64,000 nt of DNA. It comes from Microcyclospora pomicola. Its lineage: Eukaryota; Ascomycota; Dothideomycetes; Capnodiales. The notes under the pieces are model-generated. The model saw nothing but the letters and a program-made list of their open reading frames with translations. It was not told where the DNA came from and did not search any database. The translations under genes were made by a program, and so were the position numbers. Positions 50,916 through 64,000 of the stretch are shown here, piece after piece; positions within the stretch are counted from its first letter, which is position 1; each line of letters begins with the position of its first letter. The DNA is taken from NCBI GenBank assembly GCA_002786065.1, contig NHNY01000011.1:470316-534315 (forward strand), given 5' to 3'.

Positions 50916-52199
50916 TCTAGTAGCTAGGTTATTAATCTAAAGGGCACTAGCTATTAGCTAAGGGCCTTTAGAGGCTAATCCTCTATAGCTAGCTAGACTA
51001 ATAATTAAAATAGAGCTAATTAATAGGCAGAATTAAGAAGGATACTAGTCTAAGATAGCCTAATTAACTATTCTAGGCCTAGAATCCTATTAAGCCTACT
51101 AATTAGACTTAAACTATTCTAAGGAACTAATTATTATCTAGTTAATAATAAGTTAAGCTATATTAGCTTAATATAGCTTAATTACAGTACTTACTGCTAT
51201 TTAGCTCTATATTAAGCTTAAATCCTAGTATAAGAGCTAAACTAAGCTATCTAGTATCTCTAATTATAGAGAACAATTACTTTAACTTAGACTAATCTAC
51301 CTAAAGCTCTTCTAACTAGCCTTAGACCCTATTTAAGATTAAACTAGAGGTTATTATATAGCTTAGAAGAAGTATAGAGCTTCTACCTTATCTCTAAGAA
51401 TCTATAGAAGGGTTAGCCTAACATCCTAACTTTAATACCTTAATAGCAACCTTCTAAAGGCTTTAAAACTAGAATTTAGGCCCTTAACTAGTCCTAATAG
51501 AGTCTTAACCTATTCTAAGGAACCCTATACCCCTAATATAACCTCTATAGACTAGCCTATTACTATTATTTATTATGCTACCTTAAGACCTAACTACTAT
51601 AGTTAGGCTAAAGGACCCTAAGGTATATATTAAAGGGCTAGGCAAACTTAAGACTACTACTAGAAATGTAGCCTTTAAGACATAGTAGCTAGAGGTTAAG
51701 AACTATTTAGACTAAATAGAACAGTTCTAGTTTAGGAGACTAATAACTAGTAGAGAAAAGCTTAGATTAGTATTAACATTATTAGAGGATAATAACTTAT
51801 TTATATAGACAGATATATTAAAAGGTATTAGGTTATTATTATTACCTAATTAAGAGGTAAGGTAGGCTAGTTAATTAAACTTCTTAAAGTTTAAACAGAC
51901 TAATCTTAATTAGGATAAGACTAAGAGAAGGAACTTTAAGAGTATAGTATAGAAGACAACTATAAGGAAGTTTATAATTAACTTATAAGCTACCTATAAT
52001 AGGCTTCCTCTACTAAAGAATATAGATATACTAGTAAGAAGGTTCTAAAGTAGTATTAAGACTTAGGTTAGGAATAAACTTAATAAACTCTAAGTCTTAG
52101 TGTTAAATACTCTATACTATAAGTATATTATAAGGGCTATAACTATTAATAAACTTAACTTTTATAATAAGAACTATAGCTATACTATATTGTTAAGAT

Positions 52200-55100
52200 A
52201 ATAAGAGGAAAAACTTAATACTATAACTAACAAGTTTAATTAATAGGAAAAGAAGAATAAGAAGCCTAAACCTATTAATAATAGCTCTAAGGAGAGAAAG
52301 AGATAGAGAAAGCTTTATTATACCTACTAATCTCCTAACTATCTTACTAATAAGTGTCTAAAAAAATAAGTAGTAGTAGCTATAGGGTATTAGCTACTAT
52401 TAGAGAAGCCTAACTTATCTAACTAGTCCCTAAGGACCTAGATAGTCTTAGTAAAGGACTAACAAAGCTAGCTAAATAGTTAGTAGTTAAATATTGTAAC
52501 TTATTAAGTGCCCCTATAGATACTCTAAATCTTATTAATACTACTCTTAAACATCTTACTACTATTAATAATAAGTTATTTACTATAAATAGTAAGATTA
52601 GGCTACCTAATAGAATTAGAAAGGCTAAGTTCACTATTAATAGTAGAGTATCTAGGGTATATATTGCTAGAAAATTAGTAGATAGGTTACCTAATAGATT
52701 AAGAAAATCTATTAATACAATCTAGATTAAATTACCTAATAGCTAGATCCTAAGATTAGATAAGACTATTATAACTCTAATCTCCCTTAGGACCTAGTAT
52801 AATACTCTAACTAGAGTAAGGGTAGTAGATCTAGAGGACTTTAATATAATCCTTAGCTTATTATAGCTTAAACAAGTTAATCCTTAGATTAATTAGCAAA
52901 AGGGAGAGATATACTTAAAGGATAGTTAAGGCAAGTCTTATACAGTTAGGACTTATTCTAAGGTCTTTAATTTAGCTATAACTAGTTATTAAGAATATAA
53001 GTTAATAGACCTCTTAATTCCTATAGATTATATCTAAGAAGATAATTAAGTATATCTTAGCTAGTTTAGGAATAGAGTTATTAAATCTATCTCTATAATC
53101 TAAGAAGGGCTTTAACTAAGAGTAGTTAATCCCTAGTTTTAACCTTTAGTAGATTAATACCTATATCTTTAGAAGGATTCCCTTCCTAATAGGCTTCTAA
53201 AACTAAGGTTTATAGACCATAAAATTAACACTAGAGACTCTAAGCCTATTAACAAGCTAGTATATTAATTAAACCTATAACAACTAGAGGAGCAAGCTAA
53301 CTAGGTCTAATAACTGCTTAATAAGGGACTAGTAAGGCTATCTTTAAGCCCTTAGAGCAGTCTAGTCTTGTTTATACCTAAACCTAGTAGCAATTAGAGA
53401 ATGTGTGTTAACTATAGGGCCCTTAATAAGGTTACTGTTAAGAACATATTTCCCTTACTTAGGATTTAAGACTACCTTAATGCTATTGCTCTAGCTAAGT
53501 ACTTTAGTAAGCTTAACCTTGTTTCTAGATTTTAGTAGCTGTTAGTAGACTAGAAAGATATTTATAAGATAGCTTTTAATACTAGAGATAGTAAATATAA
53601 ATTTATAGTTATGCTATTTAGCTTAACTAATGCTCTATCTTTATTTCAAATATTAATAAATAATTTATTAAGAGATTTGCTCTAGAAATACTATATAGTG
53701 TATCTTAATAACATCTTAATTTACTCTAATTTAAAGGCTGAACATAAATAACACCTCTAAGCAGTATTTTAAAAGCTCTAAGAGGCTAACCTTTTCTATT
53801 CCCTAGCTAAATATAAGATTAGAGTTATAGAAGTTACCTTTTATAGCTACTTAGTAAGGTATAACTAAGTTAAACCTATAGCTAATAAGGTTAAAGCTAT
53901 TACAGACTAGCTATAACCTACTAATATTTAGGAAGTTAGGCAATTCCTTAGTCTTATTAGTTATTATAGGAGATATATCTTAGGGTTTGCTAAAATAGCA
54001 GCCTGCTTGTTAGACTTAATTAAGGAAGATAATGCCCTACTTAGAACTAAAAAGAGAAGGCCTATTAAATAGAATACTAGATATGCTATTGTATTTACTA
54101 GATTAAAATAAGCTATGTTAAGTACACTAGTATTAGCACTACTAAATGTCTCTAAGCCCTTCTAAATAGAGACTAATACCTCTAACTAGGCAATTAGTGC
54201 AGCTCTATATTAACATAATAACAACAATAAGTTGTATCTAGTAGCTTTTAGTAGTAGGAAGTTATAGAATACTAAGCTTAATTACCTAGTTTATAAGAAG
54301 GAGGGCCTTGTAATTAAGGAAGCCCTAAGGACTTAGAACTATTATATAGTTAATAGTTATAAAATCACTATATTAACAGACTATAATAGCCTTAAGTATC
54401 TTAACACTACTACTAACCCTAGTAAAAGAATTGCTAGATAGGTTAAAGAGTTCTAAGGCTATAATCTTAAGATTAAATATAGAAGGGGAGCTAAGGCTAT
54501 TATACCTAATACTATTTTAAGGAGGCTAGACTTTATAGCCTTAATAAGATTTAAGTTAGATAAGACTAAGACCTTCCTAGTAGCAATATATGCCTACTTA
54601 ACTACTAAGGAACTGCTAAAAGACAAATATTTGTTAGAATTAGTTTAGGAGAAGGTAGAACATTTTAAGTTAATCTAGCTACTTAGGGAAGACATTACTA
54701 AGCTTAGATATAGGTTACTAGACAACCTTAGTACTATCCTATTCCTAGAGTATTAGTTAAGATAGGACTTTATTAAGACTATCTATAATTAATATAGTTA
54801 TCTTAGATATCTAGGGTTAATAGGTTATATCTAACATAGAGCTTAGTAGCTAAGAATAGTAGATAATCTTAAGTCTTTTACATATAGGTGTCTAACTTGT
54901 TAATTAGTACAAAAGGTAAAGCTAGACAAACCTAAGAATAGGGAAAAGCAGTACTACTAAGTTAACAACAAGTTGCTACCTTTTAAGAGGTAGGCAATTA
55001 ATGTTATTAGTCTACTTAAAAAGACCCTTAATAGCAATAAATTTATTATTACAGCTATTAATATAGCTATAGGCTAGCTAGTTACTAAAGCTATTCCTAG

Positions 55101-56430
55101 TATAGATAATAAGGCTACTACTAAATTCATTTATAAGGACATATATAGTTTATATAGTCCTCTAAGAGAGTTACTCTCTAACAATAGCAAGAATTTCTTA
55201 TTAAGAGTTATTGCCTACCTTTTAGTATAGTTTAAAACTTATTAAGACTTAACAAGCCCCTACTATCTATAGACAAATAGTAAGGTTAAGAACTTTAATA
55301 GCTCTCTTAGCAAGGTCTTAACTAAGATATGTATTAGTACTAACTTAAGATACTAGGACATATTCTTATATAAAGCTCTGTTATAGTTAAGAAGTAGGCA
55401 GTATACTACAACTAAATTAAGCCTATTCTACCTTATATATAGCTAATATCTAAGGATTTTGTAAGATAAGAATATAATAAGGCCTATTAACATGTTAGTA
55501 GCAGATCTAGATACTAAATTAGTTTAAGTAAGACATATAAGGCAGCTTACAAATAAAAGGTTATTATAGAGAGCTTAAGCTAGAGGCTTAATTAATGCTA
55601 AGATACTTTAACCTAAAGCAAATACAAGGAGAAAGGCTAGTAACTAGGTTCTTTTACAAAACCTAAAACTAACAAAGCTCTAGCCTAAATAGATTAGTCT
55701 ATACTAAGTAGCTAAATTATATTAGCTTAGAATATATACTTTAAGAACACTAACTAGGAGAATTTTAAAGCACTTAGTATATAGGAATAGGCTTATTACA
55801 GCCTATTACAAAAGTGTAAAAGACTTTTAGAATAAGCAGCCTATAAGAAATAATAGAGGCATTATTATAAGTTCCCTAGAAATTAATAATATTCTAGATA
55901 AGTATAATATTAATTATATTAATATTAAAGAATTATTAATATAGTTAGAATAGAAATAGAGGCAACTCTAGGCCTTACTAAAGAAGGATTATGCTTCTAT
56001 AGGAGCAAGAAGGTTCTTAGTAGAGGAGGGAGATTCTATAGTAGTTAATAACAATTCTTTAATTACAAATCTTACCTTAAGGTTAAGGAAGACTAAGGCT
56101 AGATTACAGTCTAAGAAAGGGACTATACAGCTAAATGTGTTAGTTCTAAGAGCCCTAATAGCTGTTACTATTAACAAGGCTCCTAGAGTCTTTAAAGTAG
56201 TAGATAATAGGCTAGATGTTTAGTTAGCACTATAAGGTATGTAGCTTAAGACAACAAGTCTATAAAGATTAGAACTACTAGAAGTAGATAACATAGTTAT
56301 TAATAGACAACATGTTATTAGAACTCTAGAAATACTAGTTGAACTAGAGCTTAACAACTCTAAACTAACTAGGAGGTAGAGACTATTAGGTTTAAGGCAA
56401 AGACCTAGGAAGAAACAACAAAATTAGTAA
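52200..56430 (+). pseudogene. RIP-inactivated gag-pol of the Gypsy element
   Basis: Reading through TAG/TAA codons, one finds a zinc-knuckle region near 52315-52358 whose ligand positions are partly replaced by Tyr. Next are a reverse transcriptase core (NYRALNKV near 53410, and the catalytic box near 53695 reading YLNN, so the Asp pair is Asn), an RNase H region (near 54170-54430) and an integrase with zinc-binding region near 54835-54910. The substitutions are G-to-A or C-to-T type. The frame continues to about 56430, roughly 1 kb beyond the integrase core. It cannot produce active protein. Confidence 0.88.
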
Positions 56431-56511
56431 CTAAGTCTTATTGCATTTTCTATTAAACAAACTGTATAGAATCTAGCTACTTAATATAGCAACTATTGCC
56501 TTAAAGAAACC

Positions 56512-56632
56512 TAAGGATAACTTTTAGAGGAATTAATTATCCTTAATTTATTAAATAAAATTATTAAAACTTAAGGACAACTTTTAGAGGAATCAATCAT
56601 CTTTAATTTATTAAACAAAATCATTAAAACCT
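56512..56632. repeat. Imperfect tandem duplication inside the element
   Basis: Two copies of about 60 bp (CTAAGGATAACTTTTAGAGG... and TTAAGGACAACTTTTAGAGG...) each end near ATTATTAAAA/ATCATTAAAA. They differ mainly by C/T and G/A changes. The duplication lies between pol and the antisense frame. Confidence 0.75.
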
Positions 56633-56678
56633 AAGAAAACACTAAGGATCTCTACTATTAGATTCTAAGAATCTATAC

Positions 56679-57647
56679 TTACTTATCTTCCTCCTCTTTT
56701 ACAATCCTAGAAAGCTCTACATTATTAGTATAAATATTAGGAGCCCTAAACATGTTGTTAAGATCCTAAGGGCTATTAGAGGTATTAATAGCTACTAAAT
56801 TACTAGCTAAGGCAGATTAGAACTAAATAACTCTATTTATTATATTAATCTAAAACCTGCTATTAGTAGTATTAGCTAGGGAAGCAACAGGGATCCTAAT
56901 ATAAAGGCTAGTTAGTGTAGGTCTTATTGTTAGCCCTAAAACAGTTATACCCTTAGGCTAAGGCTAATTGAATTAACTAGAGAAGTTAGTATTATTACTA
57001 AAGCTGTAAGTCCTAGATCTCTAACCTCTTAATAGTAGACTTATAGAAGCCCTAGCTCTTTTGTTACCCTTACTTAAGCTATCTAGATTCCTGTTATTGT
57101 TCTTAAGAGTAGTTTTAGAGACTAAGGAACATTCCTACTACTTGTTAGTAAGTAGATAGTTAGAACAAGCTCTATATACTACAACCTTTCTATAGAGACT
57201 AGTAACTATAGTGCAATTCCTGAACTTCTTGTTAGCAGTTCCCTTAGTACACTTTGTATAAGTATTATTAGTATATCTAGTCCTTCTATAACTAGCTTCA
57301 ATACCTATTGCTACTAAGGAATACTAGGAGAATAATCTAGTAAAGGTATCTTTGTTAGGGTTAAACTCTAAAAGGGCTGTTAACCTTAATAGTCTAGAGC
57401 TAGTAGGGCTAGCATTTACAACATCTAGAAAACACTCCTACTAAGCCTCTATTCTAGTCTTTAGACTATTAGCTCTTAAAATATTAAAGAACTATACTAG
57501 CATACTTAAGCTCTACTTCCTAATCTTCTTAAATTCTACTAAAATATTGGCTTTAGTAATATTGACCCTAGTAGTGTTAGTGTTAGAAGATGTAACTAGT
57601 ACTAAGATCCTAGAGCTAGATAGAGTGTTAATTAGAGTAAAAGACAT
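56679..57647 (-). pseudogene. Antisense RIP-damaged reading frame in the 3' part of the Gypsy element
   Basis: On the strand opposite to pol, from an ATG at 57647 to TAA at 56679, exactly 323 codons stay in one frame. The roughly 15 internal stops are all TAG or TAA, none TGA, as expected if CAG, CAA or TGG codons were hit by RIP. It begins MSFTLINTLSSSRILVLVTS and has a Cys-containing, basic middle. The end AAG|GTAAGTATAG offers a donor site, so another exon may follow. No family recognised. It may be an accessory gene of the element or a captured host gene. Confidence 0.5.
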
Positions 57648-58174
57648 AATAGCTAGGGATTGTTTAGTAAGGAAGAAGGTAGTTTAAAGGCTGTTAAGGT
57701 AGTTAAAGGTAATAATAGTTAAGAAGAAGGAGATTGTTATTATTAAGGTTAATTAAGTAGAAGATATTGTTAATATAAAAGAGATAGAGGATTAGGGGGA
57801 AGGTTATAGACTATATAGACCTTGTTGCTAGCCTAAGGACATATTAGGTACTAACCCCTAAGATTTAGTTAAGGATCTGCTAATTAATTAGGGGAATAAA
57901 GGTGTTATAAGGCACTGAAGTAAAGGCATAAGGCCTTCTAAAGTAAAAAGTAATAGCTATATACCCCTATTAGAGGTTATGCTATTAGCTTAAGTGAATC
58001 TAAAATAGCATAAGATAGTTATTTTTACTAGGGATTACTAAAGGATTTTCTTTGTTTAAAGGCTTATAAAAGGCTATAAGTAAAGTAATAGACTGCTATT
58101 TACTCTATAAAGGCTATATTAAGCCATAAATAACACCCTCTTACTAGGTATTAAGAGATCTTAGTAAGGGAGGA

Positions 58175-58304
58175 TATAAGAATGATCTCTAATTAGATAG
58201 AACACGTAATATAGAGCGTACGTGACTAGTTAGTTATGTAGAAAACAATCCCTTATATAGGAAGATCTTCTTCCTAAGGCACGTACCCTTAGAATATTCT
58301 TTTA
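58175..58304 (+). repeat. 3' LTR (RIP-mutated copy)
   Basis: 130 bp from TATAAGAATG to ATTCTTTTA, colinear with the 5' LTR without gaps. All about 15 differences are transitions of RIP type. Confidence 0.88.
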
Positions 58305-59774
58305 GATAATTGTAGTAGTAAGGTAACATTTACAAGTAGCAGGAGCGTCCTACTAGTAATGTAGAGGTCGGGGGTATAAAATAGACAGGGGTGTAAAATG
58401 CTAGATTCTAAGCTACTACCTTTAATGCATAATAACTTTATAACTACTTAATAAAAAGGCTTAATTCTTAGTTTATATAATAGCTAAGAGCTGTAGTAAT
58501 AGCTGTTTACAAGATCTTCTAGTGTGGCCTTATGTGTAGTATATAGTACATATTAGTTGTTACGACTCGCGACTCCTGCACTAGGGAGCGCGACTCCCTT
58601 ACTGTCATTAGCGTCCTTTACATAGAGTTTCCTTTATAGTTTACAGTATAAGACACACATTCGTCTACTAAGATCATTTTCTACTAGTAGATTAGTATGT
58701 TTTTGCCTGTCTGACGCCTCTAAGGACTCCTAATTGTTACCTCCGCTCCTTATAGGACTCCTCCGCCTACTACCGCGTATAGGAGGAGTCCTCTCTACTC
58801 GCGGCGTGACTACAGGACTCCCTAGCCTGCGACAACATAGTAGCTAGGTTCTATCGAACTAAATCTTACTAATTACTAGCTGTCTTTATATAGCGCTACT
58901 ACAGTCCGATTCTGCAGCGACTAAACGCATTACGGAACTAGCGATTCGTCGCGTACACTTAGTTATTTACTTCGACAACCGTAGTTCGAGGACCGTAAGG
59001 ACTAGTCCTTCCTAAAGCGACACTTAGCAACATACCTCGTTAACATTCTGTCGTTAACTGAACCGACTTCATACGAGTCCTCTACTATCTCCTAAAAGAC
59101 CTCTAGGCAACCCTAACACTCCTTTCCTTGTCCTCCTTTTAGGCGGACTCGTGCTACTAACTATCAAACTAGCTTTAGTATCTCCGCTTCCTAGTCATTA
59201 AAACCGATACCTCCCTAACGTTTCCGACTCGGTGATTATCCTTGTACAAGAGATTGTGAACTTCGCCGACGACCTAGGGCAGGAACGAATTCTAAAGAAG
59301 AAAGATAAGACCGTCGACTTCCTTGCTTCTTTTATAATCTACTACTACCCTAAAGTAGTCGGTTAACAATCTAGGAATTTTCTCGCAAGCTAATAAGGGA
59401 ACGATTACGGGTTCCCTAGGGGCTAGTTAATTGATAAGTCACAGATCACAAGAGCGGCGAAGAGGCTTAGACTCTAGTTTGCGATAGTAACTACCTCTTT
59501 ATACTACTAGGAGGAGTTCCTAAGAATCCTCCTTGCGGAGTCTACCTCCGCATTGAATCTGTCGACATCGCCGCCTCCTCCGACGATCGAAGCTTCTACT
59601 CCGAGTCCTAAAACGATTCTAGTCGAGGGTCGTAAGACAGAGTCGTGTGAACGGCCTCTAGAGACACCCTAGAGTCCTTAGGCGCGAGAGTCGACTCCCT
59701 AACCTCCCTCCTACTTACCTATTATAAGACACACTGTTAACAGTTCCCTAATAGCAGACGTCCCTAGCGCGTAT
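58305..59774. mobile_element. Leader region of a second degraded retroelement
   Basis: Composition changes abruptly after the 3' LTR. CpG is frequent but CpA is depleted (many CTA, TAG), so this DNA was also hit by RIP. It contains GGAGTCCT/AGGACTCC motifs in both orientations near 58720-58800. No LTR pair could be identified. It leads directly into the gag-like frame. Confidence 0.5.
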
Positions 59775-61255
59775 ATGTCCGGAGGACAACCTAGGGACAC
59801 CCGCGAAGTCGAAGACGAGCTGTCCCCTCGCTTCGAAGACACCGATAGGGTGTTCGCTAAGAATCTTGCCCTCTAGTTAGAACTCGAACAGGTGCGTCGT
59901 AAGTTGTAGCGAGCTATAAACTAAGACATCTAGGATTTTGTTAGGAGCCGTAAGAACGCCCCTCCTCCTAAGTAATACCCGCAGCAATAGCAGTACGAGC
60001 GTAAAACGGAGTCCTATAGGGATCCGCGTCCGCTAGCTAAAGAGTATGTTACGATAAGCGACCTGTAGAGGATCCTCGCCGAACACACGCAATCCATTGT
60101 TAGGGAGATAGCTAAAGTCCTACAGCGTAAAGCATAGCCTTACGGTCCCTCTCTAGGCGACTAGGCACCTCGCGGTAAAAGACCTCTAAGTCATTATAAG
60201 GAGCTTCCTTATTTTGCCTACTATAGTGCAGGACGAGATAGCGTAGCGGCAGGACACCTACTAGGTTCGCGTGATAGTTTCTATCTAATAGGAGGAGTCC
60301 CTTAGTTGCGAGACGAGGCGTACTCCCGATCTGATCCTCGCTTAGATATTCCTTCTCGGTACGAAACCCGGAAGGAACCGGAGTTTAAACTAGAGCGCGT
60401 AGGTTTTTTCAATCCGAACCTCGGGCCTAACTATAGTAAAGGAGACGTCGTGCAATACGGCGGAAAGATCTATTACCGTTCGGTCTATATGTTTATCTAA
60501 GCGGCGTTAGATTATGCGATAACTATGCCGGATCATGTAGTCCGCATAAACCTTAACTATTGTTTTCAAGGCACCGCGGCAACCTAGTTTATTCACAGTC
60601 TTCTACTAGAGGTCCGCACGTAGATCCGAGGTAGTAAAGGAATCGAACGTTAGAAACAAGAGCTTTTCAAAAAGTTTAAGATGTCTACAACTAGAGCCAT
60701 AGAAAAGATGCTAGCCTAAAAGTACGACTAGACGTCCGTCAAGAATGGCGAGACCGTAGCCTAGTATATTATAGCGACTATTAGGTACGCGAAGGAGGCA
60801 AACTTCGTTACACTAGAGTAACAGTTGCTAGTAGCCTTTAAAGGTATCGACCTAGATTTGCGCATCAACATCTATCGCCCGAACGCATACACTACACTAG
60901 ACTCTTTCACTAGTAAGTGCGAAGCCTACGCAGAGACCTAGGAAGACTAGGCACGTAAGCGAGCTAATTATTATTCTTATCGTAAGTATGACAGAGACAA
61001 CAGTGATAAAGGGCGATTCGACAGATACGGCCGTAAAGGTCGTGCTACCGAAGGACCTGCCGAAACAGGAAGATTCTCGTCTAATCTCTGTTAGGACGGC
61101 TCTCTCTAAGACACGCGTCGCTAGCGCAACTAGGACGACTAAGCGCGATACTAGGACGAGGGACGAGACCGTTTCAAACCTCGCTACTTAAGAGACGACG
61201 ACAAGAAGGAGGTAACGACTCCTAAGACGACCGGCCCTAGAGGCCACCATGGGGC
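59775..61255 (+). pseudogene. RIP-degraded gag-like gene of a second LTR retroelement
   Basis: From an ATG at 59775 one frame continues for nearly 500 codons to about 61255, interrupted only by TAG/TAA. Recognisable parts include ELSPRFEDTDRVFAKN, EPEFKLERVGFFNPNL, NYCFQGTAATxFIHSL, LVAFKGIDLDLRINIYRPNA and a basic Arg/Asp-rich tail, the layout of capsid-type Gag proteins of fungal LTR elements. No pol follows. The similarity to RIP-marked DNA ends near 61240, where unmutated sequence begins, so the element is truncated. Confidence 0.7.
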
Positions 61256-61290
61256 GGGTTGGGGCGGAGGTGGAGGAAAATTTGGGGCTT

Positions 61291-61358
61291 ACCCAATTGT
61301 TTGGGTTCTTCTATTTAACCTCTATATTGTGCGGGGACCCATGTTATTCGGGTCCCCG
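61291..61358. repeat. Hairpin-forming palindromes in a GC-rich patch
   Basis: ACCCAA-TTGT-TTGGGT at 61291-61306 and CGGGGACCC (61332-61340) facing GGGTCCCCG (61350-61358) with a 9-nt loop. They lie in a patch free of RIP at 61240-61420 that also repeats ATTGGGGAA. This may be the end of a small DNA element. No transposase seen. Confidence 0.5.
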
Positions 61359-61602
61359 GTCCTGAATTTGGGTTTAATTGGGGAAGTTACCCTAATAGAA
61401 ATTGGGGAATGACCGTTAGAGCGTTAGAAGCTACGCTAGCTCTAAAAGGAAGGTTAGACGCTAATCTTACATACTAGTATGAAACGTTTATACTAACGCT
61501 ATTTCGAATGCCAATCACAGTGCCAATCACAGTGCCAATCACAGTGCTGCTTATATCACGTGTAGGAGATAGTTTATAAGACACAAGGCATTACGATATA
61601 GT

Positions 61603-61682
61603 GGGTATCATCGGTTTTTAGTAGCTATCTACGCTACTATATGGGTATCATTGTTGTTTAGTAGCCAACCTTGCTACTAGGA
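61603..61682. repeat. 40-bp imperfect tandem duplication
   Basis: GGGTATCATCGGTTTTTAGT... at 61603 and GGGTATCATTGTTGTTTAGT... at 61643 continue similarly to GCTACTA. It lies just downstream of the first H3-like gene. Confidence 0.7.
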
Positions 61683-61717
61683 GCCTAACTAAGCAAACAG
61701 CCTAGCCTAGTCTAGCC

Positions 61718-62396
61718 TCAATTGCCGTCCATCCTTACAGGGCTCTCCATAAGAAGCTTAAGTAGCTGCATGTCTTTCTGCTGGATAGTGACACGCTTCG
61801 AGTGAATAGCAAGCAGGTTCGTCACTAGAAACAGGGGATTAGCTAAGTAAAAGAACTAGAAGCTAAACAGACGACTTACTCTCGAAGACTCGAACCAAGA
61901 ACGCCTCTGCAGCCTCCTGAAGACACTCAAGCGCGCTAGCCTGGAACCTGAGATCGAACTTGTAACCCAGGCCAATCTCACGGACGAGACGAGCAAAAGG
62001 CGTTCTCGGGATGAGAAGTGAGACACTCTTCTGAAAGTGGCGAATCTCTTTGATTTGAGAGACTAAACACAAGTTAGTAAGTGCCAATCACTATGCCAAT
62101 CACTATTACTCACGCTCTGGCCTGATAGCTTTCTTCTGTCCATGCTTGTTCTTCCTGTACTTTCCAGGGATCTTGTTGAAAGGCACCCAGTCACGACCTT
62201 GTGTGAGCCTCTTACGGACTGTCTTAGACTTTTTTGGAGCGAGAGTCTTTCTTGGACCCTTTCCGCCTGTAGATTTGAAGCCTGTCTGTCTCCTGACTGC
62301 AGTACGCTTGATGGGTGATGCGTCGACCCGGATGCGCGTCGAAGGGGTCTCGCCGTCTTGCTGGGTGGTCGCGGGTGGTGGATTGGCGTCGGCCAT
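61718..62396 (-). CDS. Histone H3 variant: canonical-H3-like tail motif on a CENP-A-like fold
   Basis: Minus-strand exons 62396-62114, 62062-61880 and 61824-61718 (introns 51 and 55 bp, GTGAGT/GTAAGT donors, CTAAC/CTAAT branch points) give 190 residues. The tail is about 95 residues. After a 36-residue extension it reads [19 protein letters not shown], aligning with H3 residues 5-23 (K41 = K9, S42 = S10, K46 = K14, K50 = K18). The fold follows: [10 protein letters not shown] (alphaN), [10 protein letters not shown] (alpha1), [16 protein letters not shown] and [15 protein letters not shown] (alpha2), [11 protein letters not shown] (alpha3). EAAEAF instead of EACEAY/ESVEAY is CENP-A-like, but loop 1 has canonical H3 length. 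The start at 62396 (ACACAATGGCC) is preferred over an upstream ATG at 62630. It is not RIP-mutated, unlike the neighbouring elements. It is probably a chromatin protein; expression unproven. Confidence 0.8.
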
Positions 62397-63259
62397 TGTG
62401 TGGGAGTGTGAGGTACCCAGGATTGTGATTGGCAAGTGATTGGCAGGTATGTAGATGGCGGACGAGTTTTGATGGGTTTCGCAGTGTCTGGCGATGCGAG
62501 GAACGACAGCGGGGCAGCAGGTGTGATTGGCAGTGATTGGCAGCAATGTAGGGCAGCTTGTCAAAAGGATGTGCAGGGGTTTGTCAAAGTGAAGGTGATG
62601 ACTGGTGGAACGTTGAGGCGGTGACGTCATAAAAATTGGGTGGCTGGGGCGGGGTAATCACGTGGCGACCTCTGATTGGTCAGGTAAGCGAACCGTCACA
62701 TGCCTGAAGTGAAGCCTGGGATGTTTTTTCCAAAACCGCTGAGAGTGATTGGCTTTGTGATTGGCAGTGTATGACGCTGAATCCCGCGACATCTGGCAGT
62801 GTGAGCGCATAGCGCGCGAAATAAGGCTGTTGTAGACACTTGTCGCTTTTGGGTAACTTGAAAATAAACCGAAAAATCTGAAAAGCTCTAGGGAGAGGAT
62901 AGTTAGCTTAAGAGCACTATATCGACAACAAGAGCTCGAAAGGACGTACTAATAATCGTTTTACAACTTTCTAGAAGGAGAAATTTAGTTCTTTTGCTTA
63001 TAGCGGGTATAAAAATTTCGTATACATACTAGGTGTGATTGGCAGTGATTGGCAGTAAAGAGTGATTTTTAGCTCATAAGGGGCTACACAAAGTCGTTAG
63101 GTTACGCGAAAATGAATTTCTGTAGATAGCAAGGAACAGTACATGTGGAAGGTGTGATTGGCAGTGATTGGCACTAGTAATAGAGACGATCTCAAAGTAA
63201 AGCTAGAAAAGAATGTTAGCAATTAGGTAATATATACATGTGAATAAAAGGAGCTTACA
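62397..63259. promoter_or_regulatory. Spacer between the two H3-like genes
   Basis: 863 bp forming the promoter of the first H3-like gene and the 3' flank of the second. It contains ten of the TGCCAATCAC copies in five pairs, all in the orientation of the downstream gene, and TGACGTCA near 62622. AT-rich stretches around 62870-63030 carry no gene. Confidence 0.6.
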
Positions 63260-63788
63260 CTAGTCTAGCTCGTAGTATGGGTCGCCATTCATCCTATGTC
63301 GGAGCATCCGGATCAGGCGCATGTCCTTAACTGCCATCGTGACGCGTTTTGCGTGGAGGGTCGCGAGTAAGGACATCTCGAACTCTGTTATAAGAAATGC
63401 CTCCGCAGCTTCCTGTAAGGCTCCTAACGCAGAGCCTTGAATGCGAAGCTGACCCTCTGATGATATATCTGACATTATCTCACGTACAAGACGCGAAAAG
63501 GGAAGGCGCGGTATACATAGAACGGTCGTTTTCTGGATCTGTCGAATAGCGCGTAATGCAGCAGTGCCAGGCTTAAGTCTTCGCTTTTTTCGTGACTGAG
63601 ACTGCTGTCCCATACGAGGTCGTTTTAAAGGGAACTTGACACTGCGTTTTGCTACAAGTTTCGTGCGCCCTTTACGTATGATAGCTAATTTTTTTCGTTA
63701 GTTAGAAGATCGGTGTGTTAAAAGAAGGCATAAATTACATACCATTGCTAGAAGACAATGCAGTAGATGCAGGTGTAAGAGGCGGCAT
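63260..63788 (-). CDS. Histone H3-like protein with extended loop 1 (CENP-A-like)
   Basis: Minus-strand exons 63788-63743 and 63684-63260 (58-bp intron, GTATGT donor, CTAACTAAC branch, ATTAG acceptor) give 156 residues. Including exon 1 supplies a start and a basic tail (NAIIRKGRTKLVAKRSVKF, KRPRMGQQSQSRKKRRLKPG). The fold is [56 protein letters not shown] and VKDMRLIRML. Between REI and ALQE there are 18 residues against 16 in canonical H3, the longer loop 1 typical of CENP-A. The tail has no KSTGGK. FEM and KDM replace the usual FED and KDI, as in the neighbouring gene, pointing to common descent. An internal ATG could give a 117-residue form. Whether it is a centromeric histone cannot be told here. 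Confidence 0.75.
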
Positions 63789-64000
63789 TGTAGAGGGATT
63801 AATAGCTGATAAGGAATGGTAGAGGAGGTCAGAAATCAGAGAGAGAGGGAAGGAGAGGGAAGAGGAGAAGCAATCTAAGAATAAAAGCTTACATATGTTG
63901 AGAATCACGCTAGATCTACGCTAGTGATATCCCTATTATCACGCTTTAAAACTGGTTCTTAAATCGCTTACTTTTGATTTTGTTTATTTATTAATATTGC
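63789..64000. other. Window end, upstream of second H3-like gene
   Basis: AT-rich and G/A-rich sequence, presumably promoter of the second H3-like gene. No TGCCAATCAC copy and no coding signal seen. Confidence 0.4.

Follow-up and report, generated by a model that had tools for sequence, protein, structure and literature searches.

Background

Fungal hAT DNA transposons with genes similar to histone H3 are a rare, little understood and already published kind of element, known from Pyrenophora (2013) and Pseudocercospora (2019); among the papers that our literature searches listed, judged by titles and abstract openings, PMC3538342 and PMC6710886 are the only ones that describe H3 in hAT elements. 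Here we analyse an element of this kind at the end of a 64,000-nucleotide stretch of the Microcyclospora pomicola genome (below, the window), which encodes two H3-like proteins, A and B. What is new in it are two diverged, intron-bearing, open H3 genes within one element, together with a dedicated motif array. We think it rather probable, from what can be read in the sequence, that A and B are nucleosome subunits encoded by the element, captured from H3 and kept by selection, which would help the transposon's own chromatin. Transposons are normally silenced via the nucleosomes of their host, and an element with two H3-like genes of its own, open after a deep divergence, makes the idea of self-supplied chromatin directly testable.

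In the consulted parts of Manning et al. (2013), the hAT element of Pyrenophora tritici-repentis contains a central open reading frame and an H3-like gene for which expressed sequence tags (ESTs) exist, and is present in 26 near-identical copies, 10 of a long and 16 of a short form; its H3-like protein has tail insertions and fits neither H3 nor CenH3, the centromeric H3 (PMC3538342). By that description our element is similar in gene content and in its open H3 frame, and is set apart by its size and gene number, 8.26 kb with two H3-like genes here versus 5.6 kb with one there.

The corresponding parts of Dhillon et al. (2019) report H3-carrying hAT elements in six Mycosphaerellaceae, Pseudocercospora fijiensis and five relatives, of about 9.5 kb, with 20-bp inverted ends, 8-bp duplications and one or two H3-like sequences each, the second with a 16-residue insertion. 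Their amplified copies are described as all inactivated by repeat-induced point mutation (RIP), their H3-like sequences are held intronless, and the H3 is read as a housekeeping gene that was captured independently (PMC6710886). The size and the two H3 genes resemble the present element; unlike in that description, A and B are open here, with two predicted introns in A and one in B, and just one copy, on contig C37, shows RIP, of which there is also a trace at the partner contig C12. The published view of an accidental capture of a housekeeping gene is put in question by our data, since this element has a pair of such genes, which are apparently spliced and distant from the H3s and CenH3s used for comparison.

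The element and its copies

The element is a hAT DNA transposon. Its only copy assembled end to end is 8,259 bp long (C14:426729-434988), and the left inverted end of this copy, TAGAGGCCACCACGGGG, has one mismatch to the right end; the inverted ends are 17 bp long and both read inward as TAGAGGCCACCA(C/T)GGGG. Terminal inverted repeats of hAT elements are short and begin with TAGAG- or CAGGG-like sequence, and those found here are of this type. The transposase, searched in Pfam as two separate pieces, matches zf-BED (PF02892, E 1e-4) and Dimer_Tnp_hAT (PF05699, E 1e-12). A central gene of 359 residues has no Pfam match, and no relative of its product was found among 7,999 scored database candidates. 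A and B occupy the right third of the element, on the strand opposite to the transposase and the central gene, and lie between its inverted ends, as in the published H3-carrying elements. In a database search of the transposase, which scored the 8,000 candidates sharing most words with it, the two strongest of 12 matches, both 26% identical, were a Joint Genome Institute (JGI) protein labelled ribosomal protein S27E and a hAT-like protein of P. tritici-repentis, the latter over 39% of the query and of not known membership in the published element.

According to our search with the core histone family PF00125, the stretches of A and B are matched again, at the same scores, on ten further contigs; on nine of these they lie no more than about 2.2 kb from a contig end. 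The right end of the element, 2,763 bp, is found on ten contig ends (C2, C3, C4, C7, C12, C30, C42, C46, C47, C56) with zero mismatches among them, except three in C12, and also inside C14, with one mismatch; past base 2,763 the sequence is different at every contig end. Left ends were located on eight contigs, over 850 bp on C14, C47, C36, C22, C10, C6 and C37 (at 96% on the last) and over 89 bp on C9. By an exact 8-bp duplication, six of the eight left ends pair with exactly one of the ten right ends each, and the left flank of the window copy was located on C47. The duplication of C37 and C12 agrees in seven of eight bases, that of C9 is out of register, its eight bases occurring in the C4 flank one base off, and the right ends on C7 and C56 have no left partner. 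Altogether ten insertion sites and 11 copies of A were seen, the latter all at the same place within the element. That nearly all copies lie at contig ends might also be expected of a subtelomere repeat, an interpretation which is ruled out by the whole element in C14 with its inverted ends and by the duplications; the contig ends at the copies have the look of places where the assembly broke at a repeat.

The last 13 bases of the C14 copy match the C3 flank, yet its left duplication matches C2, and for this reason the right junction in C14 is probably misjoined. As regards the assembly itself, the target duplications suggest as neighbouring contigs C14-C2, C22-C42, C10-C30, C47-C3, C36-C46, C6-C47 and, probably, C37-C12.

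These data also bear on the simplest alternative, that with A we have an ordinary H3 variant of the cell, or the CenH3 of this lineage, standing near repeats by coincidence. Its open frame, introns and H3-type tail would agree with that; against it, all 11 copies lie at the same place in the same element while their flanks differ from one contig end to another, a separate CenH3 gene is present on contig C34, and the target duplications at six sites refute it, so that we give this alternative practically no weight. The earlier note on this DNA had proposed a new type of H3 variant. The H3 variant encoded here is indeed divergent and its K9-K18 block conserved; since its gene belongs to a multicopy hAT transposon, it is no cellular variant as the term is ordinarily used.

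The H3-like proteins A and B

The same note had placed an H3-like gene with two introns at 62396-61718, limits that turned out to be exact. Both predicted introns of gene A are of the GT...AG type with CTAAC/CTAAT branch-site-like motifs, and the frame is colinear with H3 across both predicted exon junctions; PF00125 matches the protein with E 2e-30. The tail of A has a block of 19 residues, from residue 37 to K55, with equivalents of K9, S10, K14, K18 and K23 and with a ten-residue counterpart of the KSTGGKAPRK of canonical H3, and the extension of 36 residues proposed to stand ahead of it does so. The stretch of the tail behind the block had been overestimated at about 35 residues: from K23 to P43 there are 38 residues in A versus 20 in H3, a net stretch of 18, and the RP of the fold begins at residue 92. 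EAAEAFL and FEM, both predicted for this product, are both in it, FEM appearing only once the exons are spliced. The 120 listed of 1,155 relatives of A in a large protein database are of H3 type, with 42-64% identity.

PF00125 matches protein B as well. It has no KSTGGK block and shares with A the EAAEAFL motif and the replacement of FED by FEM. An AlphaFold model of its second exon has four helices in the H3 order, with a mean pLDDT (predicted local distance difference test) of 52, too poor for a fold search.

The fold of A had been called CENP-A-like, which our comparisons do not bear out. Loop 1 of A has no insertion relative to H3.1, and its best match among solved structures is H3.1 (107 bits). 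Plain fold identity does not settle whether A is H3-like or CenH3-like, as it amounts to 59.1% to H3.1, 59.1% to Cnp1 of Schizosaccharomyces pombe and 54.5% to the host CenH3; EAAEAFL, present in Cnp1, A and B, is by itself no definition of CENP-A. The host has its own CenH3 gene on C34, with Cnp1 as the best solved match and a loop 1 that exceeds H3's in length, and this, together with the loop 1 length and the best solved matches of A, led us to reject A as a CenH3, in agreement with the expectation that it is not the ordinary one of this host. Protein B is 56.7% identical in its fold to Cnp1 and 54.5% to H3.1, and loop 1 in it is two residues longer than in H3, as in CenH3 proteins; in the solved-structure search it also matches H3 above Cnp1 (98 versus 90 bits). 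As a control, this search puts CENP-A first for the host CenH3 and H3 first for A and B. Overall, A and B do not appear closer to CENP-A than to H3, and they differ from CenH3 also in being multicopy and transposon-borne.

From canonical H3 the two proteins are no less clearly separated. Their fold is colinear with that of canonical H3, and A has the KSTGGKxPRK block in common with it; the differences are the low fold identity and, in A, the 18-residue tail insertion and the N-terminal extension. To four canonical H3s, which share 91-94% mutually, the fold identity of A and B is 54.5-61.4%, so that both lie outside the near-invariance of canonical H3 (about 90% or more between species).

Of the separate canonical H3 and CenH3 genes that the earlier note asked to be checked for in this genome, the CenH3 is there; canonical H3 was not found in the assembly by protein search, PF00125 family search or tail pattern, the last of which matched the 11 transposon copies only. 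The sole H4 found in the assembly is a divergent variant. The missing canonical H3 and H4 are likely a gap in the searched sequence and not evidence of gene loss. The divergent H4 gene (C55:471600-473300; 74% identity over residues 14-66) may correspond to the H4 variant of Neurospora; inspection by eye also gives an H2A/H2B pair on C13 and, on C34, an H2A.Z-like gene.

The folds of A and B are 50% identical to each other. At 18 positions both leave the canonical set, and at five of these they hold the same residue (mean 1.2 on shuffling, P 0.005); three of the five common residues are also found in a CenH3, and those seen in A and B alone are the proline of IPR, located between helices N and 1, and the methionine of FEM. 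In a tree of folds A and B cluster apart from the others with a support of 78, a weak result with 18 sequences, about 90 columns and long branches. An origin of A and B from one capture followed by duplication is possible on these data. No relatives of A or B were found in viral contigs.

The CCAAT-like motif array

A motif of nine bases, TGATTGGCA, occurs in 37 copies in the element, in pairs or triples spaced 10-12 bp apart and once as a single copy. Introns hold 13 of the 37, intergenic sequence the other 24 and coding exons none, an avoidance with a binomial P of 9e-15 given that 58% of the element is coding. The part of the element in the window has 14 copies against 0.55 expected by chance. 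All 100 matches of the exact paired form in the 23.4-Mb assembly are in copies of the element, and the backward-read control has zero matches in the same assembly. The motif includes an inverted CCAAT box, and we take it to resemble NF-Y/HAP sites; in other hAT elements the transposase binds subterminal repeats. It may be bound by the transposase or by a host CCAAT factor. A HAP5-like host gene (named by eye; PF00808 match) is at C34:788809.

RIP and the age of the family

RIP is present in this fungus. Relative to the C14 copy, the C37 copy has 259 substitutions, 243 of which are C-to-T or G-to-A, 231 of these 243 in CpA context, and carries 13 stops in the central gene; about 7.2 kb are inserted within this copy (C37:95269-102469). 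In the window, the RIP indices of the flank at 52-61 kb are strong, with a TpA/ApT index of 1.9-2.0 and a substrate index of 0.34-0.46. By its substrate index the element (1.07-1.14) comes close to host genes (1.17-1.23), while its TpA/ApT of about 1.1 is above their 0.54-0.61, and because of this higher value a light or old RIP of the element, which may have preceded its present spread, is still conceivable.

In an assembly search at E 0.001, the transposase and the central gene match C14 and C37 only, and the matches of B are the 11 known copies, A and the host CenH3. Since no older relic of any of the three was found in this search, the family would seem to have arrived, or expanded, recently in this fungus. 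Perfect identity of the copies could be offered as proof of recency as well, an argument weakened by the discrepancy between C12 and C37: the differences in the C12 copy are of RIP type and confined to its last 14 bases, though its probable partner C37 is RIP-mutated throughout. For the same reason the contig ends probably repeat one collapsed assembly path.

Possible function of A and B

We propose that A and B descend from a cellular H3 sequence captured by the element, and that selection on the element would keep them while they diverge to roughly 55-61% of H3, the spread of the element being presumably recent. Most likely expressed in bursts, they would pair with host H4 and replace H3 in the nucleosomes of newly made or mobilised copies. 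Such nucleosomes would lack the usual contacts or marks (K9-K23 is retained in A, not in B) and might help the element to stay transcribed or transposase-accessible, with silencing slowed. The paired motif array, sparing the coding exons, would probably serve as the place where the transposase, or else a CCAAT factor of the host, lands.

In neutral simulations from canonical H3 to 59% fold identity, with no indels modelled, 289 of 300 sequences acquired at least one stop, which makes mere drift an unlikely explanation for two genes that are open at about 55-61% and have GT-AG introns. Positions invariant over 14 canonical H3s, the host CenH3 and Cnp1 are kept at 39 of 53 in A and 38 of 53 in B, variable ones at 17 of 35 and 16 of 35, a modest preference (Fisher P 0.024 and 0.025, respectively). 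We also count in favour of the proposed nucleosomal role the ESTs reported, in the consulted text, for the H3-like gene of Pyrenophora (PMC3538342).

The alternative to be taken most seriously is that host H3 sequence was captured by chance (transduplication) and is carried unused, as drifting passenger cargo. In the consulted passages this is the reading given for Pyrenophora, where the gene 'may have undergone drift' (PMC3538342), and the inactivation of all amplified Pseudocercospora copies (PMC6710886) points the same way, as does a stop in the C14 transposase. The two separate open genes, the simulated frequency of stops, obtained even without indels, and the kept H3-invariant positions, modest as this preference is, all speak against it, and we judge passenger cargo to be possible, though on the unlikely side.

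Several points weigh against the nucleosomal role that we prefer. The transposase frame in C14 has one in-frame TGA ahead of the dimerisation region; C37 is without this stop and has 35 others. The divergence of A and B could predate the capture and have taken place in a cellular gene. No ortholog of A was seen among the 120 listed of 1,155 relatives, and selection on A and B can for this reason be judged only indirectly. Finally, the apparent identity of the copies may be an effect of the assembly.

One may also suppose that A and B act on the host, diluting or poisoning the host nucleosomes that contain H3 or CenH3 across the genome (for instance at kinetochores), whether as a by-product or in order to alter chromosome transmission. 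Loop 1 of CENP-A carries targeting information, and the two additional residues in loop 1 of B would suit this idea, as would the dosage that ten or more gene copies could give; the better match of B to H3 than to Cnp1 argues against it, and we regard such an action as quite improbable. Somewhat less remote, and still doubtful in our opinion, is a broader reading in which histone-encoding transposons are an old lineage of their own: instead of arising by repeated accidental captures, as published, transposase, central gene and divergent H3 genes would form a long-lived cassette, whose own H3 variants are guided to a private CCAAT-like array and form a distinct chromatin there, hiding the copies from heterochromatin and RIP or opening them to the transposase.

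Table 1. Features of the element and its flank in the window (positions count from the first base of the window)
Feature	Position	Strand	Remark
Flank receiving the element	52001..61229		RIP-mutated repeat sequence, AT-rich up to 60 kb
Target site duplication, 8 bp	61230..61237		Identical eight bases at the left element end on C47
Right part of the element, 2,763 bp	61238..64000		Remainder beyond the contig end; complete in C14
Right terminal inverted repeat	61238..61254	plus	TAGAGGCCACCATGGGG
Gene A, H3-like, 190 aa	62396-61718	minus	ATG at 62396, TGA ends 61718
Gene A, predicted exons	62396-62114, 62062-61880, 61824-61718	minus
Gene A, intron 1, 51 bp	62063..62113	minus	Contains two TGATTGGCA copies
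Gene A, intron 2, 55 bp	61825..61879	minus
Gene B, second H3-like protein, 156 aa	63788-63260	minus	Predicted exons 63788-63743 and 63684-63260
TGATTGGCA copies (61509..63173), first seven	61509, 61521, 61533, 62082, 62094, 62426, 62437
TGATTGGCA copies (61509..63173), last seven	62524, 62534, 62758, 63036, 63046, 63155, 63165

Surroundings of the element

The window at 51000-61229 consists of AT-rich, RIP-mutated repeats in which, by eye, a remnant of a long terminal repeat (LTR) retrotransposon can be recognised. In C14, a second dispersed repeat ends where the transposon begins (stretch 1-1229 of that locus), and is found 91-95% identical on C56, C45, C3, C1, C11 and C23. Between 20330 and 46415 the window has ordinary fungal genes according to Pfam (ferric reductase, Stb3, Kri1, EFR3 and a DEAD-box helicase), with two of the seven scanned frames giving no Pfam match. 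A tandem repeat of 24 bp, in 16 copies with 82% matches, is located at 1930-2319.
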